Assembly (NCBI GenBank): GCA_030263455.1
Contig: SZOZ01000002.1
Location: 496,001 to 560,000, forward strand
Source: Synechococcales cyanobacterium CNB
GTDB taxonomy: Bacteria > Planctomycetota > Phycisphaerae > Phycisphaerales > UBA1924
Length of the DNA: 64,000 bases
Direction: 5' to 3'
Below are positions 35,920 to 42,275 of this stretch, in pieces. The notes under the pieces were generated by a model. That model was not told the DNA's origin and did not search any database. It worked only from the letters and a program-made list of their open reading frames with translations. The position numbers were made by a program, and so were the translations under genes. Numbering within the stretch: the stretch's first letter is position 1; each line of letters starts with the position of its first letter.

Positions 35920-37908
35920 CTAGGCGACGCCCGCGGCTCGGAGGGACTGGTGGACGATGAGCGCGCTCGCGTAGGCGAGGCCCCACATCCAGCCGAGTTG
36001 CACCAGCGCCCACTTCCAATGGCCCGATTCCTTGGCGGTGACGGCGAGCGTCGGCAGGCACTGCATGGCGAGCACGTAGTAGACGAGCAGCGACCAGCAC
36101 GTGGCGCGCGTGAAGATGGGCGTGCGTCCGTCATCGCGTGTGGCGGTGGCGACGGCCTCGAAGACGCCGGACTCCTCGACGTCGTCGCGCCCCGCGATCT
36201 GGATCGCCATGGTGGCGACGAAGACCTCGCGGGCCGCGAAACTCGCCAGCACGCCGACGGTCAGCTGGCGGTCGTAGCCGAGCGGGCGGAAGATCGGCTC
36301 GGCGGCCTCGCCCATGCGCCCGAGAAAGGAGCGGCGCGTGGCGTGGCGGGCCTCGACCGCGTTCGCCTCTTCGAGCAGGGCGTCGGCGTCCGCGCCGGCG
36401 GCCTCAGCACGCTCGCGCAGTTCGACGGCCTCGGGGGGGGGCTGCGTCCCGGGGTAGGCGCCGAGCCACCAGAGCACGATCGAGATGGCGAGGATGATCG
36501 TGCCGGCCTTCCGGAGAAAGACCAGGCCGCGGTCCCACGCGGCGAGCAGCGCGGTGCGCAGGCTGGGGAGGCGGTAGGAGGGAAGTTCGAGCGCCATCGG
36601 TCGGCTCGGGCCGCGGAGGATGGTGCGGCGCGCGACGAGCGCGCTGAGCAGACCCGCCGCAATGCCCAGCGCGTAGCAGCCGGTGAAGGCGAGCGCCTGC
36701 ATGAGCGGGCTGTCGCGGAAGAGGAGCACCGTGAGCAGGACGTAGACGGGGATGCGCGCGGTGCAACTCATGAACGGCGCGGTGAGGATGGTGGCGAGGC
36801 GGTCGCGCCGGTCGGGCACGGCGCGGGCGGCGATGATGCCGGGCAGGGCGCAGGCGTGGCTGGAGAGGAGCGGCACGAAGGCGTGGCCGTTGAGGCCGAA
36901 GGGGCGGAGCACGCGGTCCATCACGAAGGCGGCGCGGGCGAGGTAGCCGGTGTCCTCGAGCAGCGAGATCAGGAAGAAGAGGAGGCAGATCTGCGGGAGA
37001 AAGACGACGGTCGCGCCGATGCCGGCGACCACGCCGTCGGCCACGAGGTCGTGGATCGCACCCGGGGGCAGCACGCGACCGACGAGCGCGCCGAGGTGCG
37101 CGAAGATGCTTTCGATCCAGCCCATCGGATAGGCGGCGAGGGAAAAGATGACGAAGAACAGCCCCGCCATCACGGCGACGAACGCCCCCAGCCCCAGCAG
37201 CGGGTGCGTGAAGGCGCGGTCCAGGCGGTCGGTGAAGGTGTCCGGGCGCGGCGGGTCGTAGCCGGCGGCCATCCGGGCGTAGAGGTCATCGGCCCAGAGG
37301 GCGAGGCCGTCCTCGCTTGGGGGAGGGGACTCCGTCGGGATGCGGGCGCGCGTCAGCGCGGCGAGCAGGGCGTCCAGCCCCTCGCCGGTGCGCGCGCTGC
37401 ACGGCACGGCCTCGACGCCCAGGCTGCTCATCAGCACGCCCTCGTCGGCGTGGATGCCCTTGCGACGCGAGGCGTCCACCATGTTGATCGCGATGACCGT
37501 CGGCAAACAGCGGCGGATCGCCTCGCCCACGAGCATCAGGTTCCGCGGCATGTTCGTCGCGTCGGTCACGACGAGCACCACGTCCGGCGCCTCCACCGAC
37601 TCGCCGCGCGGCGCGAGCTGCCCGGCGAGCACGTCGCGGCAGATGGCGGCCTCGGACTGGTCGAGTTCGAGGGAGTAGACGCCCGGGAGGTCGATGAGTT
37701 CGCTGCCCTCGGGCAGGCCGCGCGGGAACCCGATGCGGGCCTCCTGGGTGGTGCCGGGGAAGTTGCTCGTCTTGTGCCGCACGCCGCAGAGGCGGTTGAA
37801 GAGCGTGGTCTTGCCGGTGTTCGGGTTGCCGAGGATGGCGACGCGGACGGCGCGGGTCGCGCGTGCAGACCCGGAGGGGGGGGCGGCCGGGGCGGGGGCG
37901 TCGGACAC
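35920..37908 (-). CDS. feoB: Ferrous iron transport protein FeoB
   Basis: A 662-residue protein. N-terminal GTPase domain: G1 GNPNTGKTTLFN, G2 T in NFPGTT, G3 DLPGVYSL, G4 as INMVD (family NMID/NKxD variant), G5 SARTGEG. The second half is the polytopic membrane domain with two Gate motifs: VVFLPQICLLFFLISLLEDTGYLARAAF, FVPLLSSHACALPGI (SSHACALPG includes the conserved Cys) and the later FIREVFVAT-like segment. It moves Fe(II) across the inner membrane. It lies 24 bases after feoA. A G7 run sits near its N-terminus. Confidence 0.95.
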   Translation of the reverse strand: MSDAPAPAAPPSGSARATRAVRVAILGNPNTGKTTLFNRLCGVRHKTSNFPGTTQEARIGFPRGLPEGSELIDLPGVYSLELDQSEAAICRDVLAGQLAPRGESVEAPDVVLVVTDATNMPRNLMLVGEAIRRCLPTVIAINMVDASRRKGIHADEGVLMSSLGVEAVPCSARTGEGLDALLAALTRARIPTESPPPSEDGLALWADDLYARMAAGYDPPRPDTFTDRLDRAFTHPLLGLGAFVAVMAGLFFVIFSLAAYPMGWIESIFAHLGALVGRVLPPGAIHDLVADGVVAGIGATVVFLPQICLLFFLISLLEDTGYLARAAFVMDRVLRPFGLNGHAFVPLLSSHACALPGIIAARAVPDRRDRLATILTAPFMSCTARIPVYVLLTVLLFRDSPLMQALAFTGCYALGIAAGLLSALVARRTILRGPSRPMALELPSYRLPSLRTALLAAWDRGLVFLRKAGTIILAISIVLWWLGAYPGTQPPPEAVELRERAEAAGADADALLEEANAVEARHATRRSFLGRMGEAAEPIFRPLGYDRQLTVGVLASFAAREVFVATMAIQIAGRDDVEESGVFEAVATATRDDGRTPIFTRATCWSLLVYYVLAMQCLPTLAVTAKESGHWKWALVQLGWMWGLAYASALIVHQSLRAAGVA

Positions 37909-38861: not shown

Positions 38862-41489
38862 TCAGAGCCGGGCCTCGGCGGCGCGGGCGTGGGCTTCGAG
38901 GCCCTCGACGCGGGCGAGGCGTGCGGTGTCGAGGGTGAGGGGGCGCGCGGCGGCGGGGTCGTCGATGCGGAGCCAGGTGCGCGTGCGGAGGAAGTGCAGA
39001 ACGCTCAGGCCCGCGGCGGAGCGGGCCGCGCCGCCGGTGGGGAGCGTGTGGTTCGGGCCGGCGCCGTAGTCGCCGAGGACTTCCGCCGCGCCCGCGCCGA
39101 TGAAGACCGCGCCGAAGTGCGTGCACCGGCGGGCGATGGCCTCGGCGTCGCGCGTCATCACTTCAAGGTGCTCGGGCGCATAGCGGTCGGAGAGGGCGAC
39201 GGCCTCGGCCAGGCCGCGCGCGACGACGGCGAAGCCGTTGGCGAGGGCGGCGCGGGCCGTGGCGGCCGTCGGGAGCGTGGCGAGTTGCGATGCGAGTTCG
39301 CGCTCGACAGCGTCGAGAAGGGGGGGGTGCGTGGTGACGAGGACGGCGCAGGCGTCCGTGTCGTGCTCGGCCTGGGCGAGCAGGTCCGCGGCGACGACGC
39401 GCGCGTCCGCAGTGTCGTCGGCGATGACGAGCAGTTCGCTCGGGCCGGCGAGGGTGTCGATGGCGACCTGCCCGGCGACGAGTTGCTTGGCGGCGGTGAC
39501 CCAGCGGCTGCCGGGACCGACGACTGCGTCGCAGGGTGCGAGGGGGGAGCAACCGAAGGCCAGAGCGGCGACGGCCTGCGCGCCGCCCACCGCGAGCAGG
39601 GCGTCCACGCCAGCGATGGCCGCCGCCGCGAGGGTGGCGGGCGCGGGGCGCGGCGAGGCGACGAGGACCTCCCGCACGCCCGCGGTACGGGCGGTGATGG
39701 CGGTCATCAGCACGCTGGAAGGGAGCGGGAATCGGCCGCCGGGGGCGTAGCAGCCGGCGCGCTCGACGGGAGCGATCCAGTGGCCGGCCCGGCCGCCGGG
39801 GATCGCGAGCGCGAGTTCGTGCAGGCTGTCGCGCTGGGCCTGCGCAAAGGTTCGGATGCGATCCGCGGCGCGCTCGAGAGCGGCGCGGTCGTCACGGTCG
39901 AGCGAGTCAAGAGCGCGGCGCATCGCGGCGGGCTCGACGATCAGCGGCTCGCCGGGGCGAAGATCGCCCAGGCGCTCGGCGTGGGCGCGGACCGCCGATC
40001 CGCCGCGGACGCGCACGTCGTTCACGATCTCGGAGGCGGTGGCGAGCGTCGCGGCGTCCACCGCGCCGCGGCGCAGCGAGGGGACAGCGGCAGCGTCGAT
40101 GATGCGAAGAAGACGATCGGGTTTCGTCGGCGATGGCGCGGAGCGCTCGGCCTTTGCATCGCCCGGACGACGCGAGACCTTCAGGGCGCGGCGGTCGAGT
40201 TCTCGCTCGACGGCCTCCAGCGGCACGCCCGCGGCGGCGAGTCGCGCGAGCGTGAAGTAGAGCACGTCGGCGGCTTCGTGCGAGACCTCGTCGGGCGTGC
40301 GCGCGTCGGCGAGTTCGCCGGCCTCCTCTCGGAGTTTGCTCGCGAGGAGCGCAGGGTCGCGGAGCAGGCGCGAGGTGTAGGAGGCGGGGTCGCGAGACCC
40401 GGGGGGGGCTGCGAGGCGGCGGGCGAGGGCGTGCAGGCCGCGGGAATCGCCGAAGCAGGTGCGCGTGCCCGTGTGGCAGAAGCCGCGGCCGCGCTGTCGG
40501 ACGGTGAAGCGGAGCGCGTCGCGGTCGCAGTCCACGTCGATGCGGACGAGTTCCTGGGTGTCGCCGGAGGATTCGCCCTTGCGCCAGAGGGCGCTGCGCG
40601 AGCGCGAGAAGTAGACGCCGCGCCGTTCTGCAACTGCGGCGCGGAGGCTCTCGGGTGAGGAGTAGGTGAGGCCGAGGGCGTGTCCGGCTTCGTCGCAGAC
40701 GACAGTGGGCCAGAGGCGGATGGCGGAGGACTTGGAGCCTGGTTGCTTCTCCCCGATTCCACGCTGCGCAGCCCGCGTTCCTTCTCTGTGATCTCCGCGT
40801 TCGTCGGGTGTGCTCAGCACGGCGGCGAAGGCGTCGGCGGGGTCGAGCGCGCCGCTATAGATGGCCATGCCGACCTGGGCGTCTGCGCCGAGTCGGTCGA
40901 GCGCGGCGATCTCGTCGGCGGCGCTGACGCCGCCAGCGATCGTAACGCGCGCGTCGCCCGCGGCCTGCACGATCGCTGCGGCGCGGTCGAGATCGGTGCC
41001 TTCCATGCGGCCCTCGCGCTCGACGAAGGTGACGAGGAAACCGCCGGCGTGCGCACGGAGCGCTGCGATGCGGTCGAGGATGCGCGCCCCCGTGCCGCGC
41101 TGCCAGCCTTCGACGACGACCTCGTCGTGGCGCGCGTCAAGGGCGGCGATGACGCGATGGCGGGGGAGCTGCGAGAGGACCTCGGGCGTGGCGGCAGTGC
41201 CGAGGATGACGCGCTGCACGCCCGCGTCGAGCCACTCGCGGGCGGATTCGACGGAGCGGATGCCGCCGCCGACGCGGACCGGGAATCGGCGGGCGATCTC
41301 GCGGATGACGGGGGCGTTCGTGCCGCGCCCGAGCGCGGCGTCGAGGTCGATGACGGCGATCTCGCCCAGGATCGCAAAGCGTTCGGCGACGGCGACCGGG
41401 TCGCCCGCGTCGATCTTGACCATGGACGGATCGCCGCCGACGAGTTGCACGGCGCTGCCGCCGAGGATGTCGATGGAGGGGATGAGCAT
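38862..41489 (-). CDS. HisA-HisI-HisE-HisD four-activity fusion protein
   Basis: A single 875-residue frame joins four histidine enzymes. Residues 1-228: HisA isomerase (N-terminal IPSIDILGG, VRVGGGIRS, IAGGVSA). Residues 229-250: linker. Residues about 251-350: HisI cyclohydrolase with SRSRSALWRKGESSG and zinc Cys at 321 (VDCDRDA), 338 (FCHTG) and 345. Residues about 351-436: HisE pyrophosphohydrolase (KLREEAGELADA, HEAADVLYF). Residues about 456-875: HisD dehydrogenase with AGPSELLVIAD, APEHLE and GPNHTLPTGG. All active-site patterns look intact. The HisI-HisE-HisD order matches fungal HIS4; HisA in front is unusual. pyrE lies 32 bases upstream. ATG at 41489. Confidence 0.93.
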   Translation of the reverse strand: MLIPSIDILGGSAVQLVGGDPSMVKIDAGDPVAVAERFAILGEIAVIDLDAALGRGTNAPVIREIARRFPVRVGGGIRSVESAREWLDAGVQRVILGTAATPEVLSQLPRHRVIAALDARHDEVVVEGWQRGTGARILDRIAALRAHAGGFLVTFVEREGRMEGTDLDRAAAIVQAAGDARVTIAGGVSAADEIAALDRLGADAQVGMAIYSGALDPADAFAAVLSTPDERGDHREGTRAAQRGIGEKQPGSKSSAIRLWPTVVCDEAGHALGLTYSSPESLRAAVAERRGVYFSRSRSALWRKGESSGDTQELVRIDVDCDRDALRFTVRQRGRGFCHTGTRTCFGDSRGLHALARRLAAPPGSRDPASYTSRLLRDPALLASKLREEAGELADARTPDEVSHEAADVLYFTLARLAAAGVPLEAVERELDRRALKVSRRPGDAKAERSAPSPTKPDRLLRIIDAAAVPSLRRGAVDAATLATASEIVNDVRVRGGSAVRAHAERLGDLRPGEPLIVEPAAMRRALDSLDRDDRAALERAADRIRTFAQAQRDSLHELALAIPGGRAGHWIAPVERAGCYAPGGRFPLPSSVLMTAITARTAGVREVLVASPRPAPATLAAAAIAGVDALLAVGGAQAVAALAFGCSPLAPCDAVVGPGSRWVTAAKQLVAGQVAIDTLAGPSELLVIADDTADARVVAADLLAQAEHDTDACAVLVTTHPPLLDAVERELASQLATLPTAATARAALANGFAVVARGLAEAVALSDRYAPEHLEVMTRDAEAIARRCTHFGAVFIGAGAAEVLGDYGAGPNHTLPTGGAARSAAGLSVLHFLRTRTWLRIDDPAAARPLTLDTARLARVEGLEAHARAAEARL
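40741..40803 (-). repeat. Purine-rich GAACGCGGAG-type repeat inside the HisA-HisI linker
   Basis: Read on the minus strand: GAACGCGGAGATCACAGAGA, then AGGAACGCGG, followed by CTGCGCAGCGTGGAATC. It encodes the linker residues of the fusion (DERGDHREGT and following). The same family occurs between genes at 15455 and 56535. Confidence 0.6.
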
Positions 41490-41521: not shown

Positions 41522-42070
41522 TTATTCGTCGGTGATGCCGAGGTCGTGCTTCGTGAAGAGAGATTCGAATCGGAGTCCCTCTGCCTCGACGTTCTCGCGC
41601 GCGCCCTCCTGGCGATCGATGACGCAAATGACGGCGAGAACCTCCGCGCCCGCTCCGCGGAGCGTACGGACGGCCTCGAGGGCCTGGCCGCCGGTGGTGG
41701 CGACGTCCTCGACGAACACGACGCGCTCGCCCGGTTCGAGCCGGCCTTCGAGTTGACGCGCGGTGCCGTAATCCTTCTTCGCGTTGCGGACGAAGACGCT
41801 CGGGATGCCGGTGGCGAGGCTCGCGGCGGTGACCAGGGGAATGCCGCCGAGTTCCGCGCCCGCGAGTCGATCCGGGGGCGTGCGGCCGGTGACGAGGGCG
41901 ATGCGCTCGGCGAACATCTCGCCTAGTTCGCGGAGGAGCTCGGGCCGGGTGCTGAAGAGGTACTTGTCGAGGTAGTAGCGGCTGGTGCGGCCGGAGCGGA
42001 GGGTGAAAGTGCCGCGAAGAAGGGCGACCTCGGCGATGGCCCTGGCGAGTTCGTGGCGGGCGGTGGGCAT
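41522..42070 (-). CDS. pyrE: Orotate phosphoribosyltransferase
   Basis: A 182-residue enzyme with the phosphoribosyltransferase pattern VVFVEDVATTGGQALEAV (PRPP loop, D-V-A-T-T-G), an N-terminal FTLRSGRTSRYYLDKY segment and AGAELGGIPLVTA. It joins orotate to PRPP to form OMP in pyrimidine synthesis. A TACCCT element ends six bases upstream and no ribosome site is present, so the message is probably leaderless. It shares a transcript with the his fusion gene 32 bases downstream; both enzymes use or consume PRPP-derived substrates. Confidence 0.93.
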   Translation of the reverse strand: MPTARHELARAIAEVALLRGTFTLRSGRTSRYYLDKYLFSTRPELLRELGEMFAERIALVTGRTPPDRLAGAELGGIPLVTAASLATGIPSVFVRNAKKDYGTARQLEGRLEPGERVVFVEDVATTGGQALEAVRTLRGAGAEVLAVICVIDRQEGARENVEAEGLRFESLFTKHDLGITDE

Positions 42071-42076
42071 GGAGGG

Positions 42077-42082
42077 AGGGTA
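42077..42082 (-). promoter_or_regulatory. TACCCT -10-like element of pyrE
   Basis: On the minus strand TACCCT ends six bases before the pyrE start codon; the spacer CCCTCC has no ribosome site. Confidence 0.4.
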
Positions 42083-42275
42083 GAGCGGGCCGTGCCGGGC
42101 CGGTGACGCGGAAATCGGCGTGTGAAATCGAACCGTGGGCTTGATTCTGCCGAAACGGATGGTAATATCCTCTATCAATCCCATGCCCCCGGAAGGGCGG
42201 CGCAGGCGCACCCGTGCCTCGCCGCCTCTTTTCGTTCGAGGAGGGATGAGGGAGCAGGTGCTGAGGGAAACAAGA

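Follow-up and report, generated by a model that had tools for sequence, protein, structure and literature searches.

The window is a 64,000-nucleotide stretch of a planctomycete genome (G000; 3.2 Mb in 17 contigs). Its minus strand carries an ORF, running from 41489 to 38862, whose stop-free translation of 875 amino acids combines four enzymes of histidine biosynthesis. The gene, its parts and its upstream neighbor are as follows.

38862..41489, minus strand: hisA-hisI-hisE-hisD gene, 875 codons plus TGA (translation, Pfam, 875-aa orthologue in G001)
40806..41489, minus strand: HisA (ProFAR isomerase) domain, aa 1-228 (Pfam, alignment, fold match)
40722..40805, minus strand: HisA-HisI linker, aa 229-256, an insert with CACAGAG / CGCGGAG repeat remnants
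40440..40721, minus strand: HisI (PRA-CH) domain, aa 257-350 (Pfam, alignment, fold match)
40167..40439, minus strand: HisE (PRA-PH) domain, aa 351-441 (Pfam, alignment)
40107..40166, minus strand: HisE-HisD linker, aa 442-461, the site of the hisAIE stop and hisD start in relatives
38865..40106, minus strand: HisD (histidinol dehydrogenase) domain, aa 462-875 (translation, Pfam, key residues)
41522..42211, minus strand: pyrE-like phosphoribosyltransferase (PF00156), immediately upstream, 32 bases before the his start codon

Pfam placed four domains on the 875-aa protein, all above the curated cut-offs: His_biosynth at 2-215 (6e-44), PRA-CH at 274-346 (6e-27), PRA-PH at 354-434 (1e-15), and Histidinol_dh at 479-875 (8e-130). 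NCBIfam agreed with the HisD assignment, and the HisD domain scored 434 bits to its family. The window HisA reached 153 bits with TIGR00007 (equivalog cut-off 229) and the HisIE part reached 122 bits with NF002747 (equivalog cut-off 187), and these scores below the cut-offs are a first sign that we are dealing with a divergent subfamily. The first-pass annotation had described four enzymes in one uninterrupted frame of a planctomycete, in the HisI-HisE-HisD order of fungal HIS4 with a HisA in front, so that three consecutive steps (HisE, HisI, HisA) and the last step (HisD) would be on one chain; the translation and the Pfam domain order bear out this description. The segment 40741-40803, where a hidden frameshift or stop had been considered, is in frame and proved to be an insert of 25-odd residues without a counterpart in most relatives. 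On inspection of the window sequence, the first in-frame ATG or GTG at the HisD junction comes only about 15 codons into HisD, so that HisD translation would depend on the HisA start. A FeoB ferrous-iron transporter (FeoB_N, Gate, FeoB_C) lies downstream of the his gene at 35920-37908 on the minus strand. In another genome of the genus, G002, the place immediately before the four-enzyme gene is occupied by hisHF, and not by pyrE as in the window genome.

The frame is shared within the genus. The second genome (G001) encodes an orthologous 875-aa protein. In the third (G002), the frame stays open across HisA, HisI, HisE, and the greater part of HisD, until one extra C in a run of C residues shifts it (L008); the remainder is 93% identical in another frame, which suggests either a homopolymer error or a lesion of very recent date. 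Codon comparison of each genome pair among G000, G001, and G002 gave dN/dS values of 0.09-0.40 for HisA, HisI, HisE, and HisD, which indicates that each domain is maintained under purifying selection. We considered whether an assembly or base-calling error had merged neighboring hisAIE and hisD genes into one frame, given that two genes stand at this place in all relatives outside the genus, that in some of these (L009, L030, L040) the two share a frame with a single intervening stop, and that a homopolymer frameshift is present in one sister genome. However, the junction is read through in frame in three genomes of the genus that were assembled separately, with linkers that differ in length, and the window linker has no nearby in-frame stop. 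An assembly error is largely refuted by the two further genomes, G001 and G002, and we regard this explanation as very improbable. On these comparisons, the four-enzyme ORF is confirmed as a real, conserved fusion that is predicted to carry HisA, HisI, HisE, and HisD on one chain.

Searches of the window genome, which is 98.7% complete, found no second HisD, no second PRA-CH, and no second PRA-PH domain, and the HisA/HisF family was represented above cut-off only by the fused HisA and one hisF. Stand-alone copies of hisA, hisI, hisE, and hisD, which the first-pass annotation would have held against its reading, were thus absent, each enzyme being present once. The single hisF is itself a HisH-HisF fusion (GATase plus His_biosynth; L002:850-2346) on contig 10, adjoining hisB, with hisG about 1.4 kb upstream of hisB on the same contig. 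Since the fused gene provides the sole HisA, HisI, HisE, and HisD copies, and hisG, hisB, and hisHF are present, the histidine pathway is apparently in use and reliant on the fused gene. A PriA-type HisA/TrpF double function was rejected, as trpF is a separate gene in the genome. In the window's family (f1), about half of the genomes, many of them more than 92% complete, are without any histidinol dehydrogenase, in some cases although other members of the same genus have HisD; this absence is a patchy loss of histidine synthesis.

Active-site conservation was judged on an alignment of 64 proteins. The first-pass annotation had called all active sites intact, and this stands for HisI, HisE, and HisD and for most of HisA. 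In HisA, the general base D7, the beta-5 aspartate D118, the loop glycines G74-G76, and W129 were invariant, as were the Cys/His metal ligands of HisI (C321, C338, H339, C345) and the EExxE and ExxD motifs of HisE (E388, E389, E392, E405, D408); the Zn and catalytic residues of HisD (Q706, H709, E773, H774, D807, H867) are all found in the translation. The exception is the loop-6 catalytic acid of HisA, which is E159 (codon 41015..41013) where Asp is standard. Counted in the phmmer alignment, Glu159 aligns with D171 of S. coelicolor PriA, which we take to be equivalent to D175 of the M. tuberculosis enzyme and D176 of the S. enterica enzyme. The catalytic Asp is D175 in M. tuberculosis PriA and D176 in S. 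enterica HisA (PMC9088769). The HisA-like domain might therefore have lost the standard reaction or gained something extra, since a catalytic position (Asp171/175/176; PMC9088769) is Glu in 109/109 fused proteins, while it is Asp in 8/8 stand-alone HisA proteins of order relatives, and the score falls under the HisA equivalog cut-offs. Nevertheless, the genome has no other HisA, a carboxylate is retained by Glu, the remaining key residues are invariant, and with a separate trpF there is no need for PriA-type double duty; we consider an altered reaction unlikely. As no other HisA is available in the genome, Glu159 most likely serves as the acid.

The AlphaFold model of the HisA-HisI-HisE part was confident (pLDDT 92, pTM 0.88), apart from the linker at 232-249, which was of low confidence and disordered. 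It matched HisA and PriA crystal structures (TM 0.82-0.85 by target length), among them structures with bound ProFAR or PRFAR (TM about 0.83-0.85), in line with Pfam in giving the HisA domain a HisA/HisF-type (beta-alpha)8 barrel, and it also fold-matched bifunctional HisIE (6j2l) and plant HISN2 (7bgn). A PDB sequence search with the HisI piece returned no match. The model of the full-length protein was weak (pLDDT 65), so the arrangement of the domains cannot be read from it.

In 26 loci of the family and order outside the genus, a single ORF of about 415-480 aa encodes HisA-HisI-HisE, and hisD follows as a separate ORF. The border between the two is mostly an ATGA-type overlap, and most of the hisAIE ORFs end in a conserved RRxGDAKP-like tail. 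A scan of named public genomes gave 508 confirmed stretches, and among the best 80 loci, which were examined, HisA-HisI-HisE was in one frame in 80/80, with a hisF match upstream in nearly all and hisD usually downstream. The usual gene order is hisF, hisAIE, hisD, with a fusion of about 425 aa. Submitter labels of these loci include Phycisphaerales, Myxococcota, Gemmatimonadota, Acidobacteriota, Bdellovibrionota, and Alphaproteobacteria. Labels of metagenome-assembled genomes are unreliable, as a contig labeled "Cyanobacteria" (L064) is identical to L024, which belongs to the same family as the window; firm hosts are two Geminicoccaceae isolates, Geminicoccus flavidas and Marinimicrococcus flavescens. 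Because relatives have HisA-HisI-HisE fused and HisD separate, the three-enzyme fusion is the old one and HisD a late addition. The wording of the first-pass annotation had instead suggested a HisA put in front of a HIS4-type protein, and this order of events is not supported by the relatives, in which HisA-HisI-HisE is older and HisD comes last.

An uninterrupted four-enzyme frame was confined to the genus (g1) among the matches listed from a search of 397 genomes of the class. Four-enzyme ORFs were also present in a locus assigned to Polyangia (L096), in two of Gemmatimonadota, Candidatus Palauibacter (L103 and L112), and in one of Phycisphaeraceae (L116). On the HisA-HisI-HisE tree, whose backbone is weak, fusion to HisD requires four state changes, and the AU test on a 39-row subset rejected a single clade of four-enzyme fusions (p = 8e-5), ruling out on that subset a common origin of all of them as one clade. 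HisD apparently joined separately in four lineages; one gain followed by many later splits would be the less parsimonious account. Taken together, these comparisons point to a HisA-HisI-HisE fusion that is old and widespread across bacteria and to a later fusion with HisD, limited to the genus and a small number of further lineages. In eight loci (L009, L030, L031, L040, L049, L053, L074, L081), hisAIE and hisD share a frame with little beyond a stop between them, and these are one substitution away from a four-enzyme fusion.

A different history would be transfer from a eukaryote, in which a HIS4-type HisI-HisE-HisD gene was acquired and HisA was put in front afterwards. The order of these three domains is indeed shared with fungal HIS4 (PMC1963479), but the nearest relatives carry a fused HisA-HisI-HisE and a separate HisD, identity between the fused HisD and the neighboring separate hisD genes of the family is mostly 53-66%, and no HisA-less HisI-HisE-HisD fusion occurs among the loci fetched. 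We find this history hardly credible.

The HisE-HisD joint of the genus probably lies where a dispersed CACAGAG/CTCTGTG palindromic repeat was inserted. In G002, the linker contains a full 120-bp inverted repeat, CACCACAGAGACACAGAG...CTCTGTGCCTCTGTGGTG, precisely between the tail of HisE and the start of HisD; in G001, one arm of the element is kept and scored better than all 2000 shuffles. Most dispersed copies, of the form TTCACCACAGAGGCACAGAG...CTCTGTGCCTCTGTGGTGAA (L117-L136), measure 74-75 bp, and the longest reaches 206 bp. Copy number is very uneven, with 58 arm matches in G002, 19 in G001, and 2 in G000, while a reversed control pattern had zero matches in the genus genomes. The element folds as a hairpin, with z = -8 for a genomic copy in G000 and z = -3 for the his copy in G002. 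No recognizable remnant is left in the HisE-HisD linker of the window, which scored no better than shuffles (p 0.47), and such an element is missing from the junctions that were read in the remaining four-enzyme lineages. With a whole copy in one sister genome and half a copy in another, the element is most likely the source of the linker. The best reading would be that the element was inserted once in the ancestor of the genus and later decayed in the lineage of the window; the window's own linker no longer resembles the element, and we infer its insertion there from G001 and G002.

The HisA-HisI linker contains an insert of similar style in G000 and G002, the latter having a longer inverted-repeat version, and it is absent from G001. 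A search of the G000 genome for copies of the window's insert found only itself. Synonymous distances group G001 with G002, and the protein tree groups G000 with G002; the insert was either gained twice or lost once. A third insert of such style lies in frame inside the HisF of G000 (L002:1888-1976, arms GAACGCAGAG/CTCTGCGTTC), and its hairpin was weak against shuffles. Small palindromic mobile repeats inside genes are known, such as the Rickettsia palindromic elements and others (PMC2229807). These are likewise short repeats within a gene, but the element of this genus differs in sequence and apparently joined two genes.

We propose that the single-chain enzyme was built in two stages, HisA-HisI-HisE first and HisD joined later through a linker supplied by the repeat, and put the probability of this reading at about 0.85. 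In the first stage, the old and widespread HisA-HisI-HisE fusion would have arisen at the central position of the gene order hisF, hisAIE, hisD. In the second, in the ancestor of the genus, the overlapping stop and start of hisAIE and hisD would have been replaced by an in-frame linker, most likely supplied by the dispersed palindromic repeat, with removal of the stop and start signals. HisE converts PR-ATP to PR-AMP, HisI converts PR-AMP to ProFAR, HisA converts ProFAR to PRFAR, and HisD performs the final two oxidations from histidinol to histidine. From its domain families, the chain is predicted to carry out step 2 (HisE), step 3 (HisI), step 4 (HisA), and the last two oxidations (HisD). 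As HisI and HisD are known homodimers, the working form is likely a homodimer with the HisA barrels at its ends. The gene structure implies co-translation and a fixed one-to-one dosage of the four enzymes. Channeling of unstable intermediates, as suggested by the first-pass annotation, may be possible from HisE to HisI to HisA only; the reactions of HisD come too far down the pathway for it to have intermediates in common with these three. The independent fusion of HisD in three other lineages hints at some benefit.

Fusions of his genes as such are known already, and the closest systems are fungal HIS4, archaeal HisA/F-HisIE, and a protein of Acanthamoeba. A 2007 survey listed five his fusions and held HIS4 to be peculiar to eukaryotes, with no HIS4-like protein in prokaryotes (PMC1963479). 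Fungal HIS4 resembles the window protein in having HisI-HisE-HisD on one chain and a variable linker ahead of HisD, but its N-terminal region is of unknown function (PMC1963479), whereas the bacterial fusion has the HisA barrel there. A 2024 archaeal survey reported HisA/F-HisIE fusions in four metagenomic assemblies (cluster 787.1; PMC11237513); in these, HisA/F is likewise joined to HisIE, but, unlike in the window protein, HisD is lacking (PMC11237513). Bacterial HisIE and plant HISN2 share the HisI-HisE pair without HisA or HisD. HisHF (HIS7), a fusion also present in the window genome, is a separate protein for another step. Our literature search found no description of a bacterial HisA-HisI-HisE-HisD protein.

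The Acanthamoeba protein is a heptafunctional histidine enzyme of 1,682 aa, with listed domains IGP synthase/cyclase, ProFAR isomerase, PRA-CH, PRA-PH, HisD, and ATP-phosphoribosyltransferase (PMC6029752). By this list, the HisA-HisI-HisE-HisD order was apparently already known inside a larger eukaryotic fusion. That protein differs in carrying IGP synthase/cyclase and ATP-phosphoribosyltransferase on the same chain and in its eukaryotic host (PMC6029752); the window protein has no HisH/F before HisA and no HisG after HisD, and these are encoded on a different contig by separate hisHF and hisG genes. In seven bacterial loci (L008, L043, L046, L056, L067, L073, L116), hisHF is followed by hisAIE, with hisD next where the contig reaches, and this hisHF, hisAIE, hisD order is colinear with the Acanthamoeba protein. 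Translation of the published Acanthamoeba primers gives GTRSGYDT, GQGFCHRA, and RKGETSG, which fit the bacterial subfamily: GF precedes CH in 98/109 fused HisI proteins, while stand-alone HisI of order relatives has Ala, Cys, or Ser before CH. This likeness of the primer peptides to bacterial fused HisI is a hint of common descent. Somewhat speculatively, and with the odds rather against it, bacterial hisHF, hisAIE, hisD might be ancestral to the Acanthamoeba protein, having moved into the protist, where the remaining borders fused much as the HisE-HisD border did repeatedly in bacteria.

The main additions to this picture are a repeated, two-stage origin, a repeat element where HisE meets HisD, Glu as a hallmark of the fused HisA, and a gene order colinear with the Acanthamoeba protein. 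The standard survey treats the HisIE-HisD fusion as a eukaryotic invention (PMC1963479), whereas here several bacterial lineages appear to have arrived at it from a shared HisA-HisI-HisE precursor, a widespread yet little-noticed bacterial gene whose HisA subfamily is marked by a swapped catalytic residue. The genus also offers an example of a small repeat element apparently welding two enzyme genes together. Families in which HisD occurs both fused and separate provide natural before-and-after pairs, in which a gain in flux may be set against co-expression only.
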